Shown here piece by piece: positions 1,916-8,387 of a stretch of DNA of 21,092 bases. The stretch's first letter is position 1, and each line of letters begins with the position of its first letter. The notes under the pieces were generated by a model, which saw only the letters and a program-made list of their open reading frames with translations, had not been told where the DNA came from and did not search any database. This DNA comes from a virus, in IMG/VR virus record IMGVR_UViG_3300021963_000775, positions 1 to 21,092 of that record; one strand, written 5' to 3'. The position numbers and the translations under genes were made by a program.

Positions 1916-2758
1916 TTATGCTAATAAATGGTAATATTCTTTAAAGTGTTTGATTCTGTCCGGCAATCCAATTGTACCTCCGTTTACTCTTTTAGTAATC
2001 TTTGTTACAACTAAATCACTAGCTCCTTCATCAGCCATCTTATGTAATCCATTTTTAGAAAAGAACCAAGCTGCTGATAATAAAGCGTAAGATGATGCTA
2101 CCTTATCAGGGTTTGCTGTCATATCTTCACCAATTGATTTACCAAATGCAGTATAATTTTCTTTACCCGTCAATTGAATATATCCCCTACCTCTGAATTT
2201 GTAGCCTTCACCACTTGCTTCAGTTCCGTTACCCATTCTATTTGCATATACTTTGGATGCAATCTTTTGTGGTTGTCTAGCATATGGAGTTGCAGCTGCT
2301 TCAGTTGGGAAGTATTTCTTAAAGATACCAGCCAATCCTTTTGCTGAATAGTTTAAGTTTTCTTGAGTTGCTCTAAATCCACCACTTTCATGTCCACATT
2401 GTGCTAAGAAGTGTGCTAATCTTAATGGAGTATTAATTTGGAACTTAGCTGCCGTATCAGGAATCATTGCGATAACCGCATCAGGAATATGTCCTCTTAA
2501 TTTATCTAATTTCAATCCACCTACTGGTGCTATTGGTGCTGGTGCAACTGGTGTTGGTACGGATGTTGTTGTTTCACCCATAATCTTTGCCCAAGTTGAT
2601 GGTCCTACAATACCATCTGCAGTTAAACCATTCTTTGCCTGCCATTCTTTTACAGCTGCTTCGGTTTTAGGTCCAAAGTTAGTTACAGCCGGTTCGATAC
2701 CAAGCTTTTGTTGCATTAACTTTACGTTTTCGTTATTGTCTCCTTTTTTTAATAACAT
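1916..2758 (-). CDS. Endolysin: peptidoglycan-binding domain plus GH19 glycosidase
   Basis: This lytic enzyme cleaves the glycan strands of host peptidoglycan for progeny release. The 280-residue protein has an N-terminal PG_binding_1 domain (about 1-62: KKGDNNENVKLMQQKLG, FGPKTEAAVKEWQ, GLTADGIVGPSTW), a Pro/Thr-rich linker (about 63-80), and a GH19 chitinase/lysozyme domain (about 82-280). The GH19 signature is clear: the general-acid Glu in CGHESGGF (E124), ENLNYSAKGL (133-142), and GRGYIQLTGKENY (190-202). There is no signal peptide or membrane segment, so export must depend on a holin or other protein not recognised here. It begins 5 nt after the preceding stop, is co-transcribed with that gene, and is closed by a strong terminator. 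Confidence 0.93.
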   Translation of the reverse strand: MLLKKGDNNENVKLMQQKLGIEPAVTNFGPKTEAAVKEWQAKNGLTADGIVGPSTWAKIMGETTTSVPTPVAPAPIAPVGGLKLDKLRGHIPDAVIAMIPDTAAKFQINTPLRLAHFLAQCGHESGGFRATQENLNYSAKGLAGIFKKYFPTEAAATPYARQPQKIASKVYANRMGNGTEASGEGYKFRGRGYIQLTGKENYTAFGKSIGEDMTANPDKVASSYALLSAAWFFSKNGLHKMADEGASDLVVTKITKRVNGGTIGLPDRIKHFKEYYHLLA

Positions 2759-2763
2759 GATAC

Positions 2764-3534
2764 TTAATATTTTTTAATTTCTTTATATGTTATAACTTCT
2801 TCAGGTTTTATTACTATTTCATTCCATAAAGATGTTTTATTATCTCTACAGTCCTCTATATTTCTACAAAGGTTACTTTCATTATCAGGATATGATAATC
2901 TGAACATATTAACTGCCTTATTACCTCTATCAGTTGCGAATGTTTTTGCATCTGATTTAAATGCTGCTACTAATAAACCTTTTACTTTTACTAAAAAATT
3001 AGCTTCAGATACAAAAAATTTTTTAGCTTGTGTTGTAAATGTGGATATTGAAAATTTATATCCGTTCTTAGTTGAATCTATTAAATTAATCAATCCTTCT
3101 TTAGATGTCCAATGTAGTGTAGTTACTTCCTCATCAACAGTACCATAGGTATCCATTGTGAATTGTTCATCTAATAATAAATAAGGTTCTATTGCTCCTC
3201 TACTATTGAAGAAAGCAATCTTATCATTATCTATATTAACTATATAATCTTTGTAATCGTTTTTTAAAGACCAAACTCTATGGTTTACAAAATCTTCTAT
3301 GAAATCTAATACTTTTTTTCTTGTCAAATCAGGAAATTGTTCAGTCTCTATGTATAACTGATGTGAAAAGTATTTGTTGATTAAATCTATGAGTTGAGGA
3401 CTATAATCGATAGTTCCACCTCTAGTATCAAATCCATCTTGCTCTAACGCAAGAAATTCGTTACATATGGCTTCCCATTCTGCGATTGTGTGAAATGAAC
3501 TTTCTGGTTTAAAATATCCTCTAACTGCATACAT
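2764..3534 (-). CDS. Unknown protein, C-terminal half possibly ADP-ribosyltransferase-like
   Basis: I do not recognise this 256-residue protein with certainty. The N-terminal half (MYAVRGYF, then EWEAICNEFLALEQDGFDTRGG) looks helical and unfamiliar. The C-terminal half has an ordered run, LHWTSKEGLINLID, then FSISTFT, then VKVKGLLVAAFKSDAKTF, ending in LWNEIVIKPEEV. The spacing of an H-x-T start, a serine/threonine strand and a late NEIVI strand recalls ADP-ribosyltransferase-like folds carried by some phages. This is a weak, motif-level inference. It has no signal peptide or membrane segment. It sits directly upstream of the endolysin (5-nt gap) and is preceded by a TATTTATA motif only 6 nt before its ATG, so it is likely expressed late with lysis or virion genes. 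Confidence 0.55.
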   Translation of the reverse strand: MYAVRGYFKPESSFHTIAEWEAICNEFLALEQDGFDTRGGTIDYSPQLIDLINKYFSHQLYIETEQFPDLTRKKVLDFIEDFVNHRVWSLKNDYKDYIVNIDNDKIAFFNSRGAIEPYLLLDEQFTMDTYGTVDEEVTTLHWTSKEGLINLIDSTKNGYKFSISTFTTQAKKFFVSEANFLVKVKGLLVAAFKSDAKTFATDRGNKAVNMFRLSYPDNESNLCRNIEDCRDNKTSLWNEIVIKPEEVITYKEIKKY

Positions 3535-3540
3535 AGTAAC

Positions 3541-3548
3541 TATAAATA
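3541..3548 (-). promoter_or_regulatory. TATTTATA motif in 14-nt gap before the gene at 3534
   Basis: The octamer fills most of the 14-nt gap, ending 6 nt before the ATG at 3534. It is flanked by a 5-bp inverted repeat (AGTAA at 3553-3549, TTACT at 3539-3535). If it is a promoter, the mRNA would be nearly leaderless. Confidence 0.4.
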
Positions 3549-3962
3549 TTACTCTGATTTATTTCCCTCACCAAAATCAATTACTTCGAAAACTCTTGTC
3601 TGAATCTTCTTAGTACCTTCCGCGTTTGTTAAGATAATAGAGTTTTTAAACTTTTGCCAATTGATGACAAACGATGTATCTAATACTCCACCATTTTCCT
3701 CTTTAACTAATTCGTTAAGAGCATTAATAGTATAAAGTGAATTAGATTCTTTCTTTCTATGTATTAAGATTGTGTTTTCTAACGGGACTTCGGGTTGAAA
3801 TGCCGTATCTATGTTATATGTAATAAACAATTCCTCTAAATTGGACTTGTTTTGTAGTATATAAATATAGTTGTAGACTATGTGATAAGTCTCTCTTATT
3901 TGTTGTAGAGTATTTTGCAACTCCTCTTTTGTTGTAAATGTACAAAGTAACTGTGTCTTCAT
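3549..3962 (-). CDS. Conserved-looking small phage protein of unknown function
   Basis: This is a 137-residue protein without a recognised domain, starting MKTQLLCTFTTKEELQNTL. It is soluble in character, mixed alpha/beta by appearance, with no signal peptide, membrane segment or cysteine-rich site. The middle part, YNIDTAFQPEVPLENTILIHRKKESNSLYTINALNELV, reads like a compact folded domain. The start is unusually well marked for this genome, with AGAGGAAGG immediately before the ATG. That region can fold into a 13-bp hairpin covering the start codon, and a TATTTATA motif lies in its loop. Expression therefore appears to be deliberately limited to transcripts starting at that motif. The function is unknown; the neighbouring genes suggest a late role. 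Confidence 0.6.
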   Translation of the reverse strand: MKTQLLCTFTTKEELQNTLQQIRETYHIVYNYIYILQNKSNLEELFITYNIDTAFQPEVPLENTILIHRKKESNSLYTINALNELVKEENGGVLDTSFVINWQKFKNSIILTNAEGTKKIQTRVFEVIDFGEGNKSE

Positions 3963-4017
3963 CCTTCCTCTTGTGTCTTTTTATTATCTATAAATATCAA
4001 AAACCAAAAGGAAGGAT
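3961..4017 (-). promoter_or_regulatory. Start-codon-sequestering hairpin with promoter motif in the loop
   Basis: On the coding strand, 4017-4005 (ATCCTTCCTTTTG) pairs with 3973-3961 (CAAGAGGAAGGAT), giving 13 bp with one G-U and a 31-nt loop. The 3' arm contains the purine-rich ribosome-binding region and the first two bases of the ATG at 3962. TATTTATA (3996-3989) lies in the loop. Read-through mRNA would hide the start, whereas mRNA starting at the motif would lack the 5' arm. Confidence 0.6.
3989..3996 (-). promoter_or_regulatory. TATTTATA motif before the gene at 3962
   Basis: The octamer lies 26 nt upstream of the ATG, the same spacing as at the tail genes. It is the only candidate promoter between the large multidomain gene and this one. 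Confidence 0.5.
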
Positions 4018-4033
4018 AAAAACGGGTTATTTT

Positions 4034-7000
4034 TTAAGCACCATATACATTTTTATTAGCTTGCTCTAAAATCTTAGCAAATCTCTTATCTAATTGCATT
4101 TCAAATTTAATCTGTCCGCCATATCCAACACCATCTTCTCTAGCAACAATAGTGGCAATAGGAATTACTCTACCTTTCTTACCAGCCTTATATGCTAAGT
4201 ATGGGGGTTCTTCATCCGTTACAGCGAACAAACCTTGCTTTATTTCTTCAAAATCTGATGTTTGGAATATATTTTGTAAAATTGCTCTATCCAATGAATT
4301 AGCACCAATTGCCATAAATTCCTCACCTTCTCCAACTGCCTTTAATGGAAATTCTTCTCTAATGGCAGCTAACATACCTTGCTTTAATTTAGGATTAGTA
4401 CCCAATGCACTGATTACTGCTTTTTGATGTGCTTTGTGAGTATCTTGTACATCTTGTAGGTATTTCAATGCGCCTTTATCTCCTTTTTTAGCTAATACAG
4501 TGATTGCAGATAACATTACCTTATTAATATCTCTACTTCCTTTACCGGCTTGTAATTTATCTAATGCAGTTGGTAAATCTATGTTTTTAGATTTAACAAT
4601 TGCTTGAAATTCTGGGTCATTAGCTACCGCTGCTTGTAGTTTTTTAATATTAGCTGCACCAAAGGTTGCTAAAGCTTTTCTTTGATTTTTTGAATATACA
4701 TTTGGATTAATATCATCAGGAATATTCGGGTCCCACTCAAATAACTTTCCAGTTCCAGAGTTTAAGAAATTTACTGCAGTTGATTTTTTTAAAGATACTT
4801 CCGATAAAATCTCTTGCCCATCTTTAGTTTTTATTTTAAAATAGGCATCTGTTGAAAATCCTTTATTCTTTTTATAATCAGCCAATCCCATAGCTTCAAC
4901 TTCACCTTCAGTATCCCAACTACCGGCTTCGATTGTTGAACCAGGATATTCTCTTTGTATTGTATTTAAAATAGCTTTTCTATTATTCATAGCTGCTTTA
5001 ATCCAACTAGTACCTACAACTCTCTTACCTTCTGATTTTAAATCAGAATTTGCTGCTATTTGCTGCTTCTCATGTTCTAATAAAGAATTATAAAATATTT
5101 CAGCTTGTTTATCATCCAATGTAGTACCAATCATAGTCATCAATTCACCCGCTTGTGCCGAAATCTGCCCAGCTCCACCTGGCAAATCAGAGAAGTGTGA
5201 CCATTTTGCTGTTTGCGTATTTGCTTTAGTATTCATCATTCTTTCCAAAGCTTTTAAGTGTCTTGGTGGAACTTTTGAACCAGCAAATAATTCTTTTGGC
5301 AATTTATATGGTTTAGGTGGAGGTCCTATTTGGAATTTTTTATTTTTTTCTTCAAATTTAGAATCATCTGGTTGTTGCTTTTGAGTAAACTCTTTTGATT
5401 TCAAGGTATCTACCTTAGCAAGTGTTTTATCTTTACCACCGATTATTCTAGAACCTTTAGCTGGTTTAGTGGTTGTTGGTACTGGTTCTACTTTTGGTTG
5501 TGGTTTTTCTTTTCCTAATCTTTTTTGATATTCCGCATCGCCTGTAAACATATTCTGCGTTGATGCTTGCGGTTTAGTTTGTACTTTTTTAGCTTTAGGG
5601 TCTATGTGAGTACCGCCTTTTATAGCTTTATCTCTTGCTTGCTTAGTTTTAAAGTAAACAATTTTACCACTATCTTTAGCTCTTGCTGCTAGCTTAGGGT
5701 CACCCGTTGCTTCATCTATAAAGCCATAAATCATTTCTAACATTAACTCATCCGCTAATTGTAAATTTTCTTCTTTCATTTTTGGTTCTATTGGGGTTTC
5801 AATATTATCAGTTTCACCACTTTCTTTTTTCTTATTATATGAATCAACCATTTGCTCCATCATTTCAGGAGTGATTTCCATTTCTTCAATTCCTTTGGCA
5901 ATCATTTCAGCAAATTTTTCCATATTTGCATCCATTTCAGCTTCACCTTCCATATCAGCGAATAGTGCTGCTTTACCAGCTCCCTTTAAGATTGTTTCAC
6001 CAACAACGTGTGGTATAAACTCCATTGCTACGTGCTTACCAAATGCTGCCACACCATGCGATAATCCACCAAATGCTGCTCCAAAAACTGCCGTAGTTAC
6101 TACTTTAATAGCAACTGCTTTAAGTGCTTTCTTTTCGTGGCCTGTTAATTGTTCTCCTTTAAAGAATTTACCAACACCTTCCCCAGCTGCTTTGAATTCT
6201 TCAACTTCATGCTTAGCTCCTTTCTTAATTGCTTTCCAAGCCCCAGCTGCTTTATCTTTCAAAGCCTGTCCTAAACTTCTACGAGTTTCTGAACCAGGTG
6301 CTCCTTCGTTTTTCTCAAAGAATGCTTTTTCTTCCTTAGTCCAATTAGCTATTTTTTGTTTTACCTTATCAGTTAATTTTGGTGCTGATGTTGGTGTTGA
6401 TGGCGTTTCTTTATTTGCATCTGCTTTCTTAGCTGCAATACCCATATCTTCTGCAAACTTATTCGCCATTGGGATTGCATCTTTGATGTCTTGGTCCAAT
6501 ACCGTTGTTTTCATTTGGATTTGTTTGTCTGGGTTTTGTGCATTATATGCTACCACAGCTGCCCAACGATGATGTCCATCAATTACATATCCATCTCTAC
6601 TCACATATATTGGTGCGGTAATTTTTGGATGATTAGGGTCTTTCTCTAAAGCTCCCATCATACCAACTACCTTTGCCCCAACTAAATCTTTTTGTGTTGC
6701 TTTTAATTTATCAGCAGGTACTTCAGTTTGTAAAGTTTTAATACCTTTTTGTTTCAACATTTCTCTGAATACAGGCTCAGTATCAACTTCACCACTAGCA
6801 TCAGCATCCATTCCTGCCGCTTTACTGCCAGGTGCCGCATTTCCTTTGAATTGTGGCATCTCATCTCTTGGTATTCCTAAGTTATCATCACAATATAAGT
6901 TAGTACCCGGCACAGTCACATCACATAAGTTGATGTTTGGTGCAGGTTCTCCTTTAGCCTTTGCATCAGCTACTTGCTTTGCAACTTTATTAATATCAGT

Positions 7001-7753
7001 ATTGAATTGTTCTAACTCTTTTGGGTCTATTGCATCTGGAATATCACTTCCGCCACTAAATGTATCCGTATCAGCTTGTGGTATTTCCTTTGCAACATCT
7101 TTTACATCAATTGGATTAAATTTTGCATCTAATGGATTTGGTTCTTCTTTTGATTTCTCAGCAGTATCTTCTTTATCCTTTTGTGCTATCTTATCATTTG
7201 CTGCTTTCTCTCTATCCATTCTTGCTCCCATAGCAGGGTCTGCTTTTGGGTCAAACATTGGTGCTGCTTTTTTAATTGGGTCTTCTTTTGGTGCACCATC
7301 TTCAGCTCCACCAGCCGCTTTTGGGTCTTCACCTTTACCTGGTTGGTTTTCACCACCTAATTCTTGATTTAACTTTTCTCTTTCTGGAGAACCTTCTGGT
7401 GGTAACATTTTCTCAGCTGCCGTTCTAGCAGGACTTCCTTCAGGTTGTCTTAATAGGTTTCCAACAATACCTTCCTTATCACTACCATCCTTTGCCTTAT
7501 AATTTACTTTTTTATTTAATATAGGATTAGTAAAGTTTTTATCTGCTTCTTCAATTTCTTCAGGAGTCTTTCCTTTTTCAGTTAAAAGATTTTCAATTAG
7601 AGTATCTTTAATATGAGATAATCCCATTTCATTAAGTATAATACTCAACTCCTTTAAATGAGTTGGGTTTTTCACATCAGGCATACCATCGTTTACTCTA
7701 TAAGCCCAATCTGATACTATTTCGTTTATTAATTCAGTTATATTCATATTCAT
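4034..7753 (-). CDS. Large multidomain phage protein with ParB-like domain
   Basis: This 1239-residue protein is probably packaged in or attached to the virion. Residues about 4-58 (INEIVSDWAYRVNDGMPDV) form a helical segment that resembles an adaptor at the start of several T4-like phage proteins. Next comes a long disordered region rich in Pro, Gly, Lys and Glu with repeated PEGSP units. A ParB/sulfiredoxin-type fold follows at about 330-430, with the hallmark VIDGHHRWAA near 390. An Ala/Gly/Val-rich hydrophobic stretch lies at about 545-585, followed by Lys/Pro-rich linkers. A C-terminal domain (about 920-1239) contains ST-D-AYFKI and ILSEVSLKKS (about 980), a D...E-x-S-x-K spacing like PD-(D/E)XK nucleases. 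Its ATG overlaps the stop of the upstream nuclease gene (TAATG), implying coupled translation. Domain calls are from motifs only; the overall role is inferred. Confidence 0.7.
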   Translation of the reverse strand: MNMNITELINEIVSDWAYRVNDGMPDVKNPTHLKELSIILNEMGLSHIKDTLIENLLTEKGKTPEEIEEADKNFTNPILNKKVNYKAKDGSDKEGIVGNLLRQPEGSPARTAAEKMLPPEGSPEREKLNQELGGENQPGKGEDPKAAGGAEDGAPKEDPIKKAAPMFDPKADPAMGARMDREKAANDKIAQKDKEDTAEKSKEEPNPLDAKFNPIDVKDVAKEIPQADTDTFSGGSDIPDAIDPKELEQFNTDINKVAKQVADAKAKGEPAPNINLCDVTVPGTNLYCDDNLGIPRDEMPQFKGNAAPGSKAAGMDADASGEVDTEPVFREMLKQKGIKTLQTEVPADKLKATQKDLVGAKVVGMMGALEKDPNHPKITAPIYVSRDGYVIDGHHRWAAVVAYNAQNPDKQIQMKTTVLDQDIKDAIPMANKFAEDMGIAAKKADANKETPSTPTSAPKLTDKVKQKIANWTKEEKAFFEKNEGAPGSETRRSLGQALKDKAAGAWKAIKKGAKHEVEEFKAAGEGVGKFFKGEQLTGHEKKALKAVAIKVVTTAVFGAAFGGLSHGVAAFGKHVAMEFIPHVVGETILKGAGKAALFADMEGEAEMDANMEKFAEMIAKGIEEMEITPEMMEQMVDSYNKKKESGETDNIETPIEPKMKEENLQLADELMLEMIYGFIDEATGDPKLAARAKDSGKIVYFKTKQARDKAIKGGTHIDPKAKKVQTKPQASTQNMFTGDAEYQKRLGKEKPQPKVEPVPTTTKPAKGSRIIGGKDKTLAKVDTLKSKEFTQKQQPDDSKFEEKNKKFQIGPPPKPYKLPKELFAGSKVPPRHLKALERMMNTKANTQTAKWSHFSDLPGGAGQISAQAGELMTMIGTTLDDKQAEIFYNSLLEHEKQQIAANSDLKSEGKRVVGTSWIKAAMNNRKAILNTIQREYPGSTIEAGSWDTEGEVEAMGLADYKKNKGFSTDAYFKIKTKDGQEILSEVSLKKSTAVNFLNSGTGKLFEWDPNIPDDINPNVYSKNQRKALATFGAANIKKLQAAVANDPEFQAIVKSKNIDLPTALDKLQAGKGSRDINKVMLSAITVLAKKGDKGALKYLQDVQDTHKAHQKAVISALGTNPKLKQGMLAAIREEFPLKAVGEGEEFMAIGANSLDRAILQNIFQTSDFEEIKQGLFAVTDEEPPYLAYKAGKKGRVIPIATIVAREDGVGYGGQIKFEMQLDKRFAKILEQANKNVYGA

Positions 7754-8355
7754 TAAAATTTGTGGTCAGCTGGGTCACATACCATTTCTAACTCATCCCA
7801 TTTGAATTTTGGTTTTTCATTTAGAAATACATAACACTTCCATTTCTTTTGTTTTTCAAAATAGATGTGTTTTTGTAAGTGGGATGGGATTGCTGCTCCA
7901 GTTGCTACTCGTTTTGCAGGAGTATCAAAGAATGTTTTTATTAAAACAGTAATATTTTCAGTATCATCCCATTTACGAATTTGTTCTTCTAACATTCTCC
8001 ATTCACCTCTATTAAGATATTTATCCTGCATTATGCAATTTAAGTAAGAAAATGTTTGTTTTAGATTTACCATATTATCAGAAAATGTTGCAGCTGGTGC
8101 GCCATGTCCTTTATCGTATATGTTTGCTTTGTAATCATCCGCATCTGATGTTTTGATATTTGCTTCTTTATAAAAATCCATAGCCCCTCTATTCACATTT
8201 GTAGGTCTATTAGTTGAACGATACTTAATCACTAAGGGTTGTTCTAATGATTGTGAATAAAGTACATCAAATACTTCATTCTTTATTCTTACATCTTGTC
8301 CAAAGGAAACCAAAGAAACAATTAAGAAACTAATAAGGATACCGATTTTTTTCAT
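7753..8355 (-). CDS. Secreted DNA/RNA non-specific endonuclease
   Basis: This is probably a metal-dependent sugar-non-specific nuclease of the NUC1/EndoG family, directed out of the cytoplasm. The 200-residue protein begins with a signal peptide, MKK plus the hydrophobic core IGILISFLIVSLVSF, with a likely cleavage near FGQ-D (about 20-21). The active-site motif is YDKGHGAPAA (80-89), a DRGH variant with Lys for Arg that keeps the catalytic His84. The downstream metal-binding helix is recognisable as LNRGEWRMLEEQIR (114-127, Asn115). The end, AIPSHLQKHIYFE (155-167), matches the family's terminal strand. It is slightly shorter than usual. It heads a unit with the 1239-residue protein (1-nt overlap) and is preceded by a TATTTATA motif, so it is likely late. 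It could degrade host or competitor nucleic acid, or be acquired host cargo. Confidence 0.85.
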   Translation of the reverse strand: MKKIGILISFLIVSLVSFGQDVRIKNEVFDVLYSQSLEQPLVIKYRSTNRPTNVNRGAMDFYKEANIKTSDADDYKANIYDKGHGAPAATFSDNMVNLKQTFSYLNCIMQDKYLNRGEWRMLEEQIRKWDDTENITVLIKTFFDTPAKRVATGAAIPSHLQKHIYFEKQKKWKCYVFLNEKPKFKWDELEMVCDPADHKF

Positions 8356-8379: not shown

Positions 8380-8387
8380 TATAAATA
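8380..8387 (-). promoter_or_regulatory. TATTTATA motif before the secreted nuclease gene
   Basis: The octamer lies 24 nt upstream of the ATG at 8355, inside the 39-nt gap after the polymerase gene. No TTTG element is seen at the host-promoter spacing. Confidence 0.5.

Follow-up and report, generated by a model that had tools for sequence, protein, structure and literature searches.

A start-codon hairpin around a putative promoter box in T4-like phages points to a probable translational lock of the T4 gene e type

In phage T4, the start region of a late gene can be hidden in one transcript and exposed in another. The long early RNA of gene e is folded and yields about 100-fold less lysozyme, whereas RNA from the late promoters, which begins in the 5' strand of the structure, is free (PMC3014915). 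The same source names soc and gene 49 together with e and I-TevI as genes with inhibitory start-region structures; e and soc were the precedent given in the original prediction for the locus studied here. In I-TevI, I-TevII, I-TevIII, segB and Aeh1 mobE, a late promoter lies within or beside a hairpin by which the start region is sequestered in polycistronic RNA of the early or middle phase (PMC2988022). Here we consider a conserved gene of 137 residues whose start region is covered by a long hairpin with the box TATTTATA between its arms. We propose, with a probability of about 0.77, that it carries a translational lock of the gene e/I-TevI type that is released by promoter choice.

The window, that is, the whole stretch of 21,092 nucleotides that was analysed, is a fragment of a T4-like phage, a 21-kb viral contig with T4-type tail sheath, tail tube and baseplate proteins encoded upstream. 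The genes on the minus strand are, in order, a 1239-residue ORF, the 137-residue ORF, a 256-residue ORF, a GH19-type endolysin, an SSB-like gene and a RecA-like gene, the last label being based on sequence and on synteny with Flavobacterium phage immuto. The 1239-residue gene stops 71 bases ahead of the ATG of the 137-residue gene, and no terminator-like site was found between the two. As far as can be read from the sequence, the 137-residue gene sits inside a longer same-strand unit without a terminator. The hairpin itself was also considered as an intrinsic terminator and rejected, as the stem is not followed by a T-run and no such terminator was found in 3400-4300. The endolysin, two genes downstream, could share an mRNA with the 137-residue gene; it was not adopted as the true target of the lock, since in the relative L248 it has its own TATTTATA. 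Farther upstream, between a polymerase-like gene and the tail genes, the window encodes a phage tmRNA (9734-10121, minus strand; Rfam RF00023, 73.9 bits) with the tag DVELSTWTYEDLMSFMGADLAVAA according to ARAGORN. The features relevant to the lock are collected in Table 1.

Table 1. Features of the proposed lock and its surroundings (window positions unless a contig is named)
Feature	Position	Strand	Basis or remark
5' arm, GTTTTTATCCTTCCTTTTGGTTTTT	3999..4023	-	Fold, arm shuffle, arm-swap covariation; only in RNA begun upstream
Putative late-type promoter box, TATTTATA	3989..3996	-	Motif position; enrichment before starts in a relative
Predicted transcription start region	3981..3984	-	T4 late promoter geometry (PMC2988020); opening cost 1.7 kcal/mol
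3' arm	3955..3980 (3980-3975 and 3973-3955, bulge at 3974)	-	Fold; leader purine tract, start codon, first codons
Start codon ATG of the 137-residue gene	3960..3962	-	Fold; paired in read-through RNA
Controlled gene, 137 residues	3549..3962	-	Conserved; high-confidence predicted fold
Upstream 1239-residue gene	4034..7753	-	Same strand; source of read-through RNA
Nuclease gene	7753-8355	-	Preceded by TATTTATA
Further TATTTATA	8380..8387	-	Before the nuclease gene
Further TATTTATA	3541..3548	-	Directly before the 256-residue gene
GH19-type endolysin	1916..2758	-	Two genes downstream of the 137-residue gene
gp55-like protein	L371:1465-2187; L374:1453-2175 (L374 on the minus strand)		Remote assignment; missed by present PHROG and Pfam models

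Hundreds of relatives of the 137-residue protein are found in IMG/VR, and its homologues in GenBank phages come from Flavobacterium phage immuto, Microcystis phage Mel-JY01 and one uncultured phage. It matched no Pfam or PHROG family. Its structure is predicted with a pLDDT of 92 when 31 homologues are supplied (38 without an alignment), and the invariant residues include HRKK..N..Y..N..N. A fold search of the PDB gave a best Z of 6.1 over 64 residues, which is not meaningful, and the sole match in BFVD was an uncharacterised phage protein. Kinship with RegA received an hhalign probability of 0.3% against a single T4 sequence, and no RegA was among the fold matches listed. In immuto and Mel-JY01 the homologue lies beside polymerase, SSB and recombinase genes, and these neighbours hint at a possible role in replication or recombination.

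The hairpin is real and stronger than first noted. The sense-strand fold of 4033-3945 contains a hairpin at 3955-4023 (minus strand) with 25 pairs, of which 19 are continuous and 6 more follow a one-base bulge. The original prediction of a 13-bp stem over the start was correct as to the stem and too modest as to its length, since the pairing runs through the ATG into codon 3 and the positions given there, 3961-4017, cover just the inner part of the stem; the inner TTTTT/AAAAA pairing that it mentioned is also present in the fold. With -32.7 kcal/mol, compared with -11.2 on average for shuffled sequences (z -8.5), its MFE is equalled by 0 of 200 shuffles. Folding without the 5' arm had been suggested as a check, and RNA that starts downstream of this arm folds in the same region with only -0.4 to 0 kcal/mol. 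No Rfam family matched the hairpin above its gathering score; there were only chance matches of long hairpins far below it.

The cost of opening the start was computed as the ensemble cost of freeing positions -15 to +12 around it. With 200 upstream bases this cost is 25.3 kcal/mol, and it falls to 1.7 kcal/mol if the RNA begins 5-7 bases below the box, which is in line with the claim that RNA begun at the motif would be free. When the 5' arm alone was shuffled, the cost was 10.5 +/- 3.3 kcal/mol on average and 19.4 at most. Over 62 close relatives the median is 12.8 kcal/mol for the long RNA and 1.3 kcal/mol for the short one, with more than 3 kcal/mol between them in 59 of the 62. The same pipeline gives the expected folds for gene e and gene 49 of T4; for gene e the duplex has -11.9 kcal/mol and the opening cost, taken over a slightly narrower region than for the window gene, is 16.0 kcal/mol against 1.5-4.3 from the late promoters.

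It was proposed that a late promoter motif occupies the loop of the hairpin. TATTTATA does lie between the arms, but part of it falls within a weak inner stem. The window holds eight copies, all on the gene strand, and six of them stand shortly before a gene start. With 4.8 copies expected, a total of 8 is within chance (9 of 100 shuffles), whereas the one-sidedness has a chance probability of about 0.008; for TATTTATA in the window it is the strand bias and the position that matter, not the total count. In a 274-kb relative (G001), TATTTATA is found at most 70 bases before 27 of 347 starts and its reverse complement before 4, while the scrambled controls TTATATTA and TTATTATA precede 6 and 3 starts. 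Of the copies in the same genome, 48 are on the gene-rich strand and 14 on its complement.

A test for the T4 box TATAAATA failed, as the sense strand has TATTTATA and only 4 starts in G001 are preceded by TATAAATA, compared with 27 for TATTTATA. An antisense promoter reading TATAAATA on the plus strand was ruled out too, because strand bias and enrichment before starts are seen only for TATTTATA. What remains of the T4-like late promoter motif of the original prediction is the behaviour of a promoter box, with a sequence different from that of T4. We regard TATTTATA as a likely promoter box of these phages, its presumed activity being read from this distribution. By the geometry of T4 late promoters (PMC2988020), transcription would begin about one helical turn below the box, and the leader, about 20 bases long, would not include the 5' arm. 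Some copies are placed closer to a gene. The one before the 256-residue gene ends just 6 bases before its ATG (3534), and four genes of G001 have comparably short spacing, with the box at -11 to -13. If such boxes fire, the mRNAs would be nearly leaderless.

The pairing of the arms can be followed across relatives. In the near clade, with at least 90% protein identity, a hairpin whose arms enclose the box is found in almost all distinct leaders. The arms themselves vary in sequence (ATCCTTCC/GGAAGGAT, TTTCATCCG/CGGATGAAA, TTCATCGG/CCGATGAA, ATTTGTAATT/AATTACAAA), the core ATATTTAT between them is invariant, and the complementary segment moves by about nine bases between groups. Because the arms shift register, column covariation on a MAFFT alignment is unusable, and an arm-swap test was employed instead, in which the 45 bases upstream of the box, taken as the 5' segment, were matched with the start region of their own or of another cluster, with 5000 permutations. 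Allowing that shared ancestry inflates these results and is not fully removed, own arms gave -11.0 kcal/mol and swapped arms -7.5 over all 41 clusters (0/5000 permutations as good), -15.6 and -11.5 in 18 near-clade clusters (0/5000), and -7.2 and -5.9 in 20 clusters of a clade of 73-82% identity (5/5000).

In every one of 62 distinct near relatives, 5 or more of the bases -12 to -1 pair with sequence 5' of the motif, and 2 or more bases of the ATG do so in 54; these counts lean towards pairing because the partner was picked by the best duplex. The stem is not uniform. It is shorter and interrupted in several relatives, several of its positions are G.U pairs, and a common variant has two C.A mismatches at the start codon inside the stem. 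In part of the 73-82% clade the motif is kept and pairing of the ATG is weak, and in several members the lock is weak or missing. Pairing broken without compensation in related phages had been named as the observation that would speak against the idea; instead, the lock is kept in the 62 near relatives and own arms win against all 5000 swaps. Sequence variation of this kind indicates that the hairpin is kept by selection among near relatives, and not in most of the distant homologues. Separately, the leaders of L150, L197, L175 and L107 have a different conserved small hairpin (TTCTC..GAGAA) between the box and the ATG, which would persist in the short RNA.

The strong pairing is specific to this gene. 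At other TATTTATA sites before ORFs on the same contigs the median duplex is -5.4 kcal/mol, compared with -10.0 kcal/mol at the 137-residue gene (P 9e-6), and a duplex of -12 or stronger occurs in 2 of 45 clusters of other sites against 14 of 34 clusters of the 137-residue gene. In G001, which has 24 genes with a box at most 60 bases upstream, the only strong lock is at the 137-residue gene (-20.5 versus -12.1 or weaker). The enrichment in this genome and its single strong lock make it likely that TATTTATA is a promoter box and that the hairpin is peculiar to the 137-residue gene.

The presence of the lock can be set beside the upstream junction. Wherever the gene upstream could be assigned in the close clade and in that of 73-82% identity, it belongs to the 1239-residue family, and its end is 52-97 bases from the start. 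Distant homologues mostly come after a PolA-type polymerase gene, or they touch or overlap a gene that is of the 1239 type or unassigned, and most of them lack the box as well as the hairpin. Phage immuto, too, is without the hairpin. Box-flanking hairpins of other sequences are nevertheless found in L103 and L291 (43% identity to the window protein) and in L359 and L368 (44-45% to the L103 protein). The hairpin of L359 and L368, of the AAGAGTTGAT/ATCGACTCTT type, overlaps the box itself, and it is apparently an independent version of the lock. It is attractive to suppose that such a lock emerges where a longer transcription unit includes a promoter dedicated to this gene.

A T4-type late promoter requires gp55. 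Searches of the relatives with the single T4 gp55 sequence, PHROG and Pfam mostly miss a gp55-like protein, which was found with an immuto query. With hhalign, the 240-residue immuto protein is aligned to T4-type gp55 over the N-terminal part of the latter at a probability of 93% and E 4e-7, and it has homologues in G001, G002, G009 and Mel-JY01 with E values of 1e-46 to 4e-39. The candidate late sigma of the relatives is a remote assignment by sequence, and it is not encoded in the 21-kb window fragment.

The context of translation differs from that of T4. In G001, SD-like four-base words precede 14 of 252 starts and are found in 27 of 252 upstream controls, so they are not enriched, and its leaders have 49% A. 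In Bacteroidota, the SD is unused, and initiation is tuned by start-region structure and upstream adenines (PMC6847099). As G001 makes no use of the SD, what the hairpin hides is the start region as such, not an SD; the burial of a ribosome-binding region, as originally worded, holds for the start region and not for the SD. Relatives and Mel-JY01 also encode bS21 (Pfam PF01165; G001:C1:120216-120359, which is L400, and L398, L399 and L397), a protein that, in one account of Bacteroidia ribosomes, belongs to the pocket by which recognition of the SD is blocked (PMC9976891).

We suggest the following scheme. Read-through RNA from the 1239-residue gene would hold both arms and form the long hairpin, which would bury the leader, the AUG and the first codons, and the 137-residue gene would not be translated from the polycistronic mRNA. 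The putative TATTTATA promoter between the arms would produce an RNA with only about 20 bases ahead of the AUG; as the 5' arm is missing from it, this RNA would remain open and could be translated. The gene would then stay silent until its own promoter fires, most likely late and by way of the gp55-like sigma. RNA from the TATTTATA copy before the nuclease gene would cross the 1239-residue gene into the lock, which would also shut this late RNA; the lock may discriminate by promoter of origin and not strictly by time. The original interpretation is supported by these data, from which we infer promoter function, late timing and the translational block.

Other readings of the hairpin can be considered. 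A variant of the same lock, in which a trans-acting protein or terminating upstream ribosomes sometimes open the read-through RNA, is unlikely: the upstream stop is 10 bases before the 5' arm, and the junction lengths of the close and 73-82% clades would likewise bring a terminating ribosome near enough to touch the base of the stem, but the opening cost is very high and there is no conserved loop or protein-binding sequence besides the DNA box. The hairpin might also be a processing or stability element at the junction, such as a substrate for a double-strand RNase, with start masking as a secondary effect. Its 25 pairs are long enough for such an enzyme and it stands exactly at a gene boundary; this reading does not account, however, for an ATG covered by the 3' arm in 54 of 62 relatives or for a promoter box that is always between the arms, and it does not fit well with the shorter and interrupted stems of several relatives. 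We therefore consider it quite improbable.

It is slightly harder still to see the inverted repeat as acting in the form of DNA, that is, as a palindromic operator or cruciform that binds a regulator, with the RNA fold as a by-product. The repeat does bracket the promoter box, and I-TevI is known to repress itself at its own late promoter through an operator that overlaps the promoter (PMC2988022). A conserved operator site, however, would not be expected to vary in sequence and register while its halves stay complementary, and the G.U pairs in the stem fit RNA rather than DNA. That a pyrimidine-rich sequence upstream of the promoter simply pairs with a purine-rich leader through composition is hardly credible. 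Swapped arms of the close clade do pair somewhat by shared composition (the mean of -11.5 kcal/mol given above), yet the z of the window hairpin is far from the shuffles, own arms beat every permutation, and the other motif promoters of these phages are without the pairing.

A translational lock released by promoter choice would extend a T4 regulatory trick to distant and environmentally abundant phages whose late box is a different one and whose translation apparently does not depend on the SD. Selection on it is visible as arms that change sequence and register while they remain complementary. Mistimed synthesis of the conserved 137-residue protein is apparently worth preventing, and TATTTATA together with the gp55-like protein offers a testable handle on late transcription in these phages. 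More tentatively, arm-shifting start hairpins with TATTTATA in the loop could be a general insulation device of Bacteroidota-type T4-like phages, gained when a gene of the replication cluster lost its tight upstream junction and got its own late promoter, in hosts that ignore the SD; we hold this to be possible, though doubtful.

The mechanism is already known from T4, and what is new is probably its occurrence on an uncharacterised gene of a distant, water-dwelling T4-like group. As in T4 gene e, RNA from upstream would hide the start region, and the putative promoter is placed so that its own RNA would lack the 5' arm. Gene e, however, is a known gene with an SD, the TATAAATA box and two late promoters, whereas the window lock has the TATTTATA box, a longer stem that reaches into codon 3, and no SD usage in G001. 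I-TevI, I-TevII, I-TevIII, segB and Aeh1 mobE are homing endonucleases, while nothing marks the 137-residue protein as a nuclease. Finally, soc and gene 49 were described in T4, whereas the lock of the window could be followed across many relatives in which the arms have been re-registered.
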